Positions 2,916-5,285 of a DNA stretch of 24,600 nucleotides are shown piece by piece. The stretch spans positions 1 to 24,600 of the IMG/VR virus record IMGVR_UViG_3300046736_000079; one strand, given 5' to 3'. A model generated the notes under the pieces. It worked only from the letters and a program-made list of their open reading frames with translations. It was not told the DNA's origin and made no database searches. Positions within the stretch are counted from its first letter, which is position 1; every line of letters starts with the position of its first letter. The position numbers and the translations under genes are program-made. This stretch comes from a virus.

Positions 2916-3083
2916 GTGGCGTCATCCTGGCGTGAGCCGACGCCGGCCGACCGCGAAGAACGGCGGGTCATCGACCGACCGCCGAAATGCTGGCGCTGCG
3001 GCAGGGCGCTCGGCGAGTACGTCGCGCGTCCCTGGTCGATCAAGTGCCGACGCTGCAACGCCGAGAACCGATCCAAGCCCTAG
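2916..3083 (+). CDS. Com-like zinc-ribbon protein, 55 aa
   Basis: The frame starts at GTG two bases after the previous stop. The protein has two CxxC pairs, Cys25-Cys28 in KCWRCGRALGEY and Cys44-Cys47 in SIKCRRCNAEN, separated by 15 residues and surrounded by Arg/Lys. This spacing and the basic character resemble phage Mu Com, a small zinc protein that binds the mom mRNA and exposes its translation start. The match is by motif and size only. It is the last gene before a non-coding gap with a strong hairpin over the ribosome binding site of the protease gene, which makes an RNA-binding role worth testing. It could equally be a generic zinc ribbon of unknown role. Confidence 0.65.
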   Translation: MASSWREPTPADREERRVIDRPPKCWRCGRALGEYVARPWSIKCRRCNAENRSKP

Positions 3084-3093
3084 ACTTCCTCTA

Positions 3094-3122
3094 TTGCGCT
3101 TCGCTCTTTCATCAGCCATACT
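3094..3122 (+). promoter_or_regulatory. Possible sigma-70-like promoter for the head operon
   Basis: In the only sizeable gap of the left block, TTGCGC (3094-3099) is followed after 17 bases by CATACT (3117-3122). These match the -35 and -10 consensus at three and four of six positions. The surrounding stretch is AT-richer than the neighbouring genes. The match is modest, so this is a suggestion rather than a firm call. Confidence 0.3.
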
Positions 3123-3148
3123 GATTTCACGAATCGAATAACCACCAG

Positions 3149-3190
3149 CGGCCCCCTCTGCATCGCGGCCCCAACGCAGAAAGGGGGCCG
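3149..3190 (+). promoter_or_regulatory. Strong hairpin burying the protease ribosome binding site
   Basis: CGGCCCCCT (3149-3157) pairs with AGGGGGCCG (3182-3190), and inside it CTGC (3158-3161) pairs with GCAG (3176-3179), leaving a 14-base loop and a two-base bulge. The right arm contains AAAGGGGG, which is the only Shine-Dalgarno-like sequence for the ATG at 3196, eight bases downstream. Folding would hide it. Only three T residues follow the stem, so it is a weak candidate for an intrinsic terminator; an mRNA element that tunes translation is at least as likely. Confidence 0.55.
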
Positions 3191-3195
3191 TTTGC

Positions 3196-3924
3196 ATGCC
3201 GCTCGAATACAAGAGCATCCCGTTTGAGGTCAAGGAAGTCGTCAGCGTCGAGTCGGGCGGCTGGGAGATCGCCGGCTACGCCAGCACCTTCGGCGGCGAG
3301 CCTGACTCCTACGGCGACGTCATCGCCGCCGGCGCCTTCACCGAGTCCATTGCCACCCGGCCGACGAAGTTTCTCTACGAGCACTTCGAGCCCATCGGCA
3401 AGCAGCTGGAAATCCGGGAGGACGAGCACGGCCTGTTCGGCCGCTGGTCTATCGTCAACACCCGGACCGGCGAGGACGCCTACAAACTGGCGAAGGCTGG
3501 CGTCCTCGACTCCCTGAGCATCGGGTACTTCACGCAGGATGCCGACTACGACAAGGATGGCGTCCGCATCCTGCGGAAGATCGACCTATACGAGGTGTCG
3601 GCCGTCGCCATCCCGGCGAATAAGTCGGCCGTCATCACCGACGTCAAGTCCCGTCCCTTCGAGATCCACTCTGCGGATGTGCAGGTTGCCCTCCGCGAGT
3701 ATCTGACGCGCTGTAAGGCCGGGTTGGCCCAGCGCCAGAAGGACGGGCGCGAACTGTCCACCGCACGCCGAGACCAGATGGCTGCCATGAGCGGGTCGCT
3801 CCGAAGTGCAGCCGATGAGGTCGACGCGCTGCTTGTGCCGCCTGCCCCGCCCGAGGTCATCAACGTCGGCGCGGAGCTACGCCGTCGGCGCTACCAGAGC
3901 GCCGGCCTGGAGCGACCCGCATGA
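3196..3924 (+). CDS. HK97-family prohead protease, 242 aa
   Basis: This capsid maturation protease should cleave the delta domain of the capsid protein and then itself inside the prohead. The sequence shows the fold of the HK97 gp4/U35 family: a beta-rich start with GYASTFGG (27-34), catalytic His63 in FLYEHFEPIGK, Ser108 in the LSIGY motif, and the conserved tail of the domain LYEVSAVAIPAN (131-142). The C-terminal 80 residues are charged and helical, as in proteases with a self-cleaved tail. The length is normal. The stop overlaps the start of the capsid gene (ATGA), the classical order. The ribosome binding site lies in a strong hairpin, so translation may be controlled. Confidence 0.93.
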   Translation: MPLEYKSIPFEVKEVVSVESGGWEIAGYASTFGGEPDSYGDVIAAGAFTESIATRPTKFLYEHFEPIGKQLEIREDEHGLFGRWSIVNTRTGEDAYKLAKAGVLDSLSIGYFTQDADYDKDGVRILRKIDLYEVSAVAIPANKSAVITDVKSRPFEIHSADVQVALREYLTRCKAGLAQRQKDGRELSTARRDQMAAMSGSLRSAADEVDALLVPPAPPEVINVGAELRRRRYQSAGLERPA

Positions 3925-5285
3925 GTTCACCAGTAGCAGACCACGCCCTGACCGTCGACAAGGTCAGGAACATGAGCCTATCGGAGTGCATGGCCGAGAG
4001 CCGCACCCGCTACGAGAAGTGCGCCGCCATTGAGGCGAAGCACCCGAACGGCGTCACCCCTGACGCGGCCGAGGACTTCGCCGAGGTCAAGCGCCTGCTG
4101 ACCGAAGTCGACCTGATCGAGACCCGGACCGCCGAGCTTGAGGACGCCGGCAACCGCACCCGCCGGATCACCGAGAACACCAGGCGGCTCGGCCGTCCGG
4201 CCGAGACCCACTCGCAGCCGTCCGGCGGCGACACAAAGAACATCATGACGATGTTCGGTTCTCAGTTCGTCGAGGACCAGCAGTACAAGAGCGTCGTTGA
4301 GTCGGGCGTCCTCAACAACGGGATGGCCCGACCCGAGTTCGGCATCAATCTCAAGGGCTCGATGCTCGACTACATGACGCACAAGGCGCTGGTCTACAGC
4401 GCCTCCGGTCAGGGCGGCAACCTCATCACCAATGATCGGCTGCCGGGCTTCCGCGAGATCCTTCAGCGGCAGTTGACCATCCTCGACCTGATCCCGACCG
4501 CGCAGACGACCAGCAACACCATCGAGTACGTGAAGGAAAAGACCTTTACGAACAACGCCGCCGAGGTTGCCGAGGCGACGGCCACCACCGGCACGACCGG
4601 CACCAAGCCCGAATCTGTACTGAACTTCGAGCTTGCGACCTCGGCCGTCCAGACCATCGCCCACTGGATTCCGGTTACGAACCAGATGCTCGCCGATGCG
4701 CCCCAGATCAGGGGCATCATCGACAACCGTCTGATCTACGGCCTGAACCAGCGGCTTGAAACCGAGATCCTGGGCGGCAACGGCACACCGCCGAACCTGC
4801 TCGGCATCCTGAACACGCCGCTCATTCAGACGCTCGGCCTCGCTGCCGGCGCCACCTACGGCGGGCAGGCGACCGTGGTCGACGCCGCGTTCGCTGCGAT
4901 GGTCCAGATCCAGGTGACCGGCCTCGCGAATCCCAACGGCTTCGTGTTCAACCCGGTTGACTGGGCAGCCGTCCGTCTGATGCGTGAGTCGGCGGTCACC
5001 GGCAACGTCAACCCTGGCGGCTACCTCTACGGCCCGCCGAGCGTGGCTGGCCCGATGACCCTCTGGGGTCGCCCGGTCGTTGAGGCGGTCGGCATGACGC
5101 TGAACACGATGCTCGTTGCCGACTTCCAGCTCGGCTGCATGCTGTTCGACCGCGAGCAGGCGGCTATCCGGGTCGGCACGATCAACGACCAGATGATCCG
5201 CAACATGCAGACGATCCTGGCGGAGCTCCGGGCGGCGTTCGTCGTCTTCCGTCCGACTGCTTTCGCGCAGGTAACGGGAGTCTAG
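3921..5285 (+). CDS. HK97-fold major capsid protein, 454 aa
   Basis: This is the main shell protein. The first 105 or so residues are charged and helical (for example EDFAEVKRLLTEVDLIETRT, 51-70), as expected for a delta scaffold domain removed by the protease just upstream. The mature part probably begins near NIMTMFGSQF (108-117). It then follows the HK97 pattern: an N-arm, GNLITNDRLPGFREIL, a beta-rich P-domain with WIPVTNQMLAD, an A-domain around VFNPVDWAAVRLM, and a C-terminal strand with LRAAFVVFRPTAFAQ. The length fits an uncleaved precursor with delta domain and no separate scaffold gene is seen. The cleavage site itself is inferred, not visible. Confidence 0.94.
   Translation: MSSPVADHALTVDKVRNMSLSECMAESRTRYEKCAAIEAKHPNGVTPDAAEDFAEVKRLLTEVDLIETRTAELEDAGNRTRRITENTRRLGRPAETHSQPSGGDTKNIMTMFGSQFVEDQQYKSVVESGVLNNGMARPEFGINLKGSMLDYMTHKALVYSASGQGGNLITNDRLPGFREILQRQLTILDLIPTAQTTSNTIEYVKEKTFTNNAAEVAEATATTGTTGTKPESVLNFELATSAVQTIAHWIPVTNQMLADAPQIRGIIDNRLIYGLNQRLETEILGGNGTPPNLLGILNTPLIQTLGLAAGATYGGQATVVDAAFAAMVQIQVTGLANPNGFVFNPVDWAAVRLMRESAVTGNVNPGGYLYGPPSVAGPMTLWGRPVVEAVGMTLNTMLVADFQLGCMLFDREQAAIRVGTINDQMIRNMQTILAELRAAFVVFRPTAFAQVTGV

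Follow-up and report, generated by a model that had tools for sequence, protein, structure and literature searches.

The ribosome binding site of the head maturation protease gene in a family of soil phages lies in the right arm of a two-part RNA hairpin that is preserved by compensatory changes, and a gene for a small Com-like zinc ribbon lies upstream of it. Judged from sequence comparison, this arrangement is rather probably a Com/mom-type translational switch that has been redirected from DNA modification to control of the head operon. The stretch of DNA analysed, hereafter the window, is the IMG/VR virus record IMGVR_UViG_3300046736_000079 (24600 bases), where glycosyltransferase genes, a small gene (2731-2913), the zinc-ribbon gene, the protease gene and the gene of the major capsid protein follow one another (Table 1). 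Because the start of the capsid gene overlaps the protease stop by 4 nt (3921-3924), both genes are probably controlled together, and the likely unit is protease plus major capsid protein instead of the protease alone that the first-pass annotation had proposed. The two glycosyltransferase genes just 5' of the head genes (647-1309 and 1592-2734) have family 2 and family 1 domains, and the one at 1592-2734 matches phrog_7162, of the moron category.

Table 1. Coordinates of the features around the head protease start in the window, and the basis of each assignment.
Feature	Position	Strand	Basis
Com-like zinc-ribbon gene (GTG start, 55 aa, CxxC...CxxC, SSWREP N-terminus, class IV, divergent)	2916..3083	+	phrog_6417 match, position, motif
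Promoter-like TTGCGC-N17-CATACT, predicted leader transcript start near 3129	3094..3122	+	TTGNNN-17-NANNNT scan
Bipartite RNA hairpin pairing the protease G-run (ribosome binding site)	3147..3192	+	Folds; structure-anchored covariation, 28 leaders
AAAGGGGG, Shine-Dalgarno-like G-run in the hairpin right arm	3180..3187	+	8 nt from the start codon (ATG, 3196)
Head maturation protease gene, Peptidase_S78	3196..3924	+	PF04586 E 5.8e-26; phrog_80 E 3.9e-47
Major capsid protein gene, Phage_capsid	3921..5285	+	PF05065 E 2.5e-39

As folded, the outer stem of the window hairpin joins AGCGGCCCCC (3147-3156) to GGGGGCCGTT (3183-3192) through 10 pairs, G-U included, and the inner stem joins TCTGC (3157-3161) to GCAGA (3176-3180) through 5 pairs. 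A two-part stem of 13 base pairs had been described for this site; its two parts were recovered, and the size was near that of the 10 + 5 pairs folded here. In the folding model, freeing the protease G-run costs 17.4 kcal/mol, the highest value among 39 greedy gene starts in the window (the next is 8.5). The folding energy of the 181-nt region is unremarkable, with 17 of 200 shuffles equally stable (z -1.53), and since plain folding energy is ordinary, the case for the hairpin rests on its conservation. Rfam covariance models gave no match at E<=1 in the window and six loci.

Two protease scans of IMG/VR yielded 43 loci at 63-99% identity, which together with the window make 44 loci and 28 distinct leaders, taken as the last 80 nt before the start. 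A Com-like gene was found upstream in 26 of the 28; in the other two it is cut by the contig end (L013) or lies beyond it (L038), so that every contig reaching far enough carries a small gene with SWRE and four cysteines upstream of the leader. This gene adjoins the leader in 18 of the 28, with its stop ~80-130 nt before the protease start, and lies 0.7-2.3 kb upstream, with other genes between, in eight. In these eight (L006, L008, L014, L015, L026, L043, L045 and L048) the genes that separate it from promoter and leader are varied, and one gene of the L026 insert looks ParB-like by eye; the contig of L009, which has the same leader as L008, is too short to show the zinc gene.

The proteins have ~60 aa, and the cysteines C20, C23, C40 and C43 are invariant in all 26 aligned. 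They were sorted by sequence, by eye, into classes I to V, with L013 and L038 placed in class III by their leaders; class IV has two members, the window and L026. Likeness to Com is canonical in classes I, II and V and weak in class IV, while no class III protein matched the Com models; class III aligns with classes I and II at 96-98% by hhalign, helped by the common SWREP start. Among 18 aligned adjacent members, 13 match phrog_6417 (best 2.6e-7) and 11 gpCom, at E<=0.1, and nine match PF10122 (Zn_ribbon_Com; best 1.5e-4), with L034 at 20.9 bits, below the cut-off of 22.9; canonical members match Com families at 1e-4 to 3e-7. Of the Com families PF10122, phrog_6417 and phrog_13819, the window protein matches a single one, and weakly (phrog_6417, 'translational regulator', E 0.0087), and its nearest relative, that of L026, matches the same family at 0.0055. 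The position of the window gene and its SWRE and four-cysteine pattern are the same as in 25 relatives. The window protein appears to be a divergent Com, and the earlier description of the upstream gene as a Com-like zinc ribbon holds, with four cysteines in place and better matches for most counterparts in relatives.

All 28 leaders have a common layout: a C-rich left arm, an inner hairpin, a G-rich right arm and the start codon. Since MAFFT alignments of the leaders misplace some arms, pairs were counted in a structure-anchored table, anchored on the C-run, besides three class-wise alignments (A7-A9). In this table the outer-stem positions -3 to +4 are paired in 25, 28, 28, 28, 28, 27, 28 and 27 of the 28 leaders, and four of these positions show three or four pair types; at position -2 the pairs are A-U in 15 leaders, C-G in nine, G-C in three and G-U in one. 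Over positions -3 to +5, 11 G-U pairs stand against four A-C mismatches, which favours an RNA of the + strand. Both-side changes occur in 3 of 16 pairs in A7, 4 of 12 predicted pairs in A8 and 4 of 17 pairs in A9, and the covariation score of A7 was reached by 1 of 500 shuffles, although such binomial and shuffle figures overstate independence because the leaders share descent. Each large leader class shows both-side stem changes by itself. The search for co-variation in related phages called for by the first-pass annotation thus gave clear compensatory changes, across the 28 leaders as well as within each large class, and stem conservation in relatives, the absence of which had been named beforehand as a refutation, was found in 28 of 28. 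Together with the modelled opening costs in the window, this supports the view that the ribosome binding site is locked in a hairpin. In the fold model the start site is closed in all 28 leaders. From the last G of the paired G-run to the start codon there are 7-9 nt in every leader, and the modelled cost of opening the G-run ranges from 8.5 to 19.4 kcal/mol.

The 24 more distant protease relatives inspected (~33-47% identity; L021-L024, L049-L052, L054-L062 and L079-L085) showed no such leader, the hairpin of L059 aside. At this locus (38%) a short GC hairpin and a T-run precede the matched start (position 3001), in a terminator-like arrangement. A pattern scan for the class IV leader recovered the L026 contig alone, and one for the class I left arm with its upstream mini-hairpin, described below, found six contigs, five from these phages and one (L120) without the hairpin. 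A class I covariance model had no match in the window; each class I or V contig gave a single strong leader, with further matches weak, and multiple copies of this leader type are therefore not indicated. Class-wise scans with the zinc proteins returned only contigs already carrying this leader.

The published Com site, in the available text of PMC6483171, is a hairpin loop C-N2-3-GA. Hairpins of at least 3 pairs with such a loop occur in 17 of the 28 leaders, against a mean of 3.4 and a maximum of 11 in 1000 composition shuffles, and two or more of them in 10 of the 28, against 0.22 in shuffles (maximum 3), a count that for class I includes a weak overlapping one; random 66-nt windows of the same loci have one such hairpin in 18% of cases and two or more in 1.5%, and all these statistics ignore the common descent of the leaders. 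By class, the loops are present in 7/7 leaders of class I, 5/8 of class II, 2/2 of class V, 3/9 of class III and 0/2 of class IV. Their N positions vary and the C and GA stay; in L031 a stem C-G is flipped to G-C beneath an unchanged loop. Most relatives have small hairpin loops at two sites, one at the tip of the occluding hairpin and one in an upstream mini-hairpin of the form GGGC-loop-GCCC or [A/G]GGCG-loop-CGCC[C/T], the 3' strand of which doubles as the left arm of the stem that closes the start site. This mini-hairpin was detected by script in 23 of the 28 leaders and by eye in L042, and is absent from class IV (the window and L026) and from the pair of class V. Its p values in single leaders run from 0.006 to 0.38 and combine to 2.7e-10 for the 28 leaders and 2e-5 for 14 representatives, with common descent ignored. 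When the G-run was forced open in the model, the mini-hairpin appeared, and the inner hairpin persisted beside it, in several leaders of classes II and III (among them L002, L003, L010, L039, L015 and L045); it did not form in those of class I.

The window leader has neither a C-N2-3-GA loop nor a mini-hairpin, so the proposal that this very leader is a Com target finds no recognisable Com site there. In the class III leaders L005, L027, L032, L041 and L042, UUCGG takes the place of C-N2-3-GA in the mini-hairpin, and the apical loops are mostly UUCNGGU-like; these loops fit the divergent zinc protein of that class, and a second recognition code is possible. The upstream GGGCCAT of some class I leaders could alternatively base-pair with ATGGCCC around the start codon. 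The idea that this element serves start-codon pairing only was set aside, as L025, L031 and L036 keep the mini-hairpin without the complement; in L034, L043 and L048 such pairing may add to closure.

The zinc protein and the leader have varied together. Among the 26 phages whose zinc gene is complete, the Mantel correlation between zinc-protein and leader distances is r 0.754 and remains 0.753 when partialled on the protease (permutation P 0.0002), as against 0.081 between zinc protein and protease and 0.139 between leader and protease. Zinc-protein distance correlates at 0.45 with the region from -140 to -70 and at 0.12 with the 5'-terminal 60 nt of the protease gene. The window and L002 align up to 2697 and then only over 34 bases at the SWREP codons (2915-2948, 97%); no similarity was detected from 2949 to 3180, and the alignment resumes at 3181, inside the right arm, at 88.6%. 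The same pattern of joint replacement was found between L039 and L041 and between L042 and L043. Because alignments break and resume at these borders, the body of the zinc protein, the promoter region and the leader appear to move as one cassette. The SWRE codons at the start of the zinc gene are near-identical in DNA in 26 phages, in contrast to the remainder of the gene; this block may be a joint for recombination or serve some separate function. Physical linkage would suffice to account for the joint transfer, as the Com-like gene adjoins the leader in most cases; the agreement of leader type with Com class across the 0.7-2.3 kb of other genes in eight leaders is a suggestive, not decisive, sign of something beyond linkage. 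It is conceivable, if rather doubtful, that the Com-like protein and the leader of the capsid genes act as an interchangeable lock and key. The body of the zinc protein and the leader as far as the ribosome binding site would then be exchanged in one piece, bounded by short conserved joints at the SWREP codons and at the protease start, which would give related phages mutually private capsid controls. The driving force might be satellites, co-infecting relatives or host interference by which expression of the capsid is exploited or blocked.

Between the zinc gene and the hairpin, within the interval 3084-3205 to which the first-pass annotation had drawn attention, sits the promoter-like element. 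In 21 of the 28 leaders the best script match is a TTGNNN-17-NANNNT pattern located at -100 to -125 relative to the start codon, and a similar element was seen by eye in L043 and L048; the window element taken alone has a shuffle p of 0.24 and was not matched in a separate promoter and terminator scan. A real promoter at this place would mean that transcription of the zinc gene comes from another site and that the gene acts in trans.

The proposed switch would start from a leader RNA of ~66 nt, the probable source of which is a separate promoter directly behind the Com-like gene. In the OFF state the leader would fold and pair the protease ribosome binding site and, through the gene overlap, close the capsid gene as well. 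The Com-like zinc protein, encoded upstream, would act in trans on the small hairpin loops of the leader. In most relatives, mini-hairpin and occluding stem would compete for one C-run, making the outer structures mutually exclusive, and in the ON state the protein, by holding the mini-hairpin, most easily during RNA synthesis, would leave the G-run free. The decision would be expected during transcription, because the modelled opening costs are large for activation at equilibrium. The direction, activation, is inferred by analogy with Mu. As for the earlier suggestion that a Com-like protein acts on the start-site hairpin, the covariation of the stem, the co-evolution and co-transfer of protein and leader, and the Com-site loops of the relatives point to it; the lack of such a loop in the window leader and the promoter-like sequence between the two genes speak against it.

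In the BglG/SacY antitermination leaders, a protein-bound 5' hairpin overlaps the left arm of a downstream hairpin. The same topology is found here, the mini-hairpin sharing the left arm of the GC-rich hairpin that follows it. Transcription attenuation, in which the GC-rich hairpin would be an intrinsic terminator and the mini-hairpin, alone or with the Com-like protein, an antiterminator, might also account for the U-rich spacers of several leaders (6-7 T in the last 8 nt of L008, L015, L043 and L048). We consider this unlikely. Among relatives the number of T in the 8 nt that precede the start is not conserved, ranging from 1 to 7, and the window spacer CCGTTTGC has no U-tract (3 T in 8), nor was the site called by a terminator scan. 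The constant spacing of the G-run is a need of a ribosome binding site and not of a terminator, so together with the variable T content it fits occlusion better. The leaders studied here differ from those of BglG/SacY in this fixed spacing, in their poor U-tract and in the zinc-ribbon nature of the protein.

A hairpin that merely holds translation low and constant, or protects the mRNA at its 5' end, with the Com-like gene having some other target and the co-variation reflecting recombination linkage at the conserved protease start, would agree with the adjacency of the gene in 18 of the 28 leaders and with swaps that span Com gene to leader as one block. Such a constitutive brake or stabiliser seems decidedly improbable to us, given that leader type still matches Com class where other genes intervene, that the loops match the published Com site and that no second class I leader copy was detected in the searched contigs. 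Hardly credible, finally, is a Com-like repressor that binds the apical loop, stabilises the closed hairpin and shuts off the head genes. The tip loop would be accessible in the closed form as well; nevertheless, Mu Com activates, as far as the available part of PMC6483171 goes. Two loops in the open form against one in the closed form mean that binding should favour opening.

The translational switch on the head operon therefore remains our preferred reading, and the first-pass idea appears right in kind and broader than proposed, with partial support. The role known for Com is to activate translation of the DNA modification gene of Mu. If the switch is true, Com would no longer be a special case but one of a class of translational regulators, with the head operon as a target throughout a phage clade, and some phages would gate capsid synthesis through RNA structure. 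Natural variant pairs, natural swaps among them, would then serve for learning how a zinc ribbon reads RNA, the structure of the Com-RNA complex being described as unsolved in the available text of PMC6483171. A search of the accessible papers returned nothing on Com-like control of head genes.

The closest known system is Com/mom of Mu, where Com is a translational activator in the accessible portion of PMC6483171. The likeness, within that portion, lies in a small four-cysteine zinc protein encoded just upstream, in a start site closed by a hairpin (a translation inhibition structure there, a modelled one here) and, for part of the leaders here, in a short hairpin with a C-N2-3-GA loop that partly overlays the closing structure. 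The two systems differ in several ways: here regulator and target are separated by a promoter-like site, two loop positions are occupied in many leaders, the zinc protein varies together with the leader as a cassette that is exchanged, and the published loop motif is missing in 11 of the 28 leaders, including that of the window. The target there is mom, and here it is the head protease and capsid (Peptidase_S78 and Phage_capsid), with no DNA modification gene. Com genes also stand beside presumed targets in prophages of Pseudomonadota, where PF10122 matched in 25 of 398 sampled genomes. The leader of one such locus (L143), where, as in L131, the Com gene is followed by a Mom-like gene, has a CCATGAG motif with complementary flanks shortly before the mom start. 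The two matches in annotated phages are followed by a DNA adenine methylase (Curvibacter phage TJ1) and by hypothetical genes (Pseudomonas phage Komp_PAO1_1). Among 30 Com loci fetched, the next gene could be assigned in 25, and 21 of these are DNA modification genes (18 MethyltransfD12, that is, D12-class adenine methylases, two Mom and one C5 methylase), whereas in the soil phages the Com-like gene accompanies the genes of the head.
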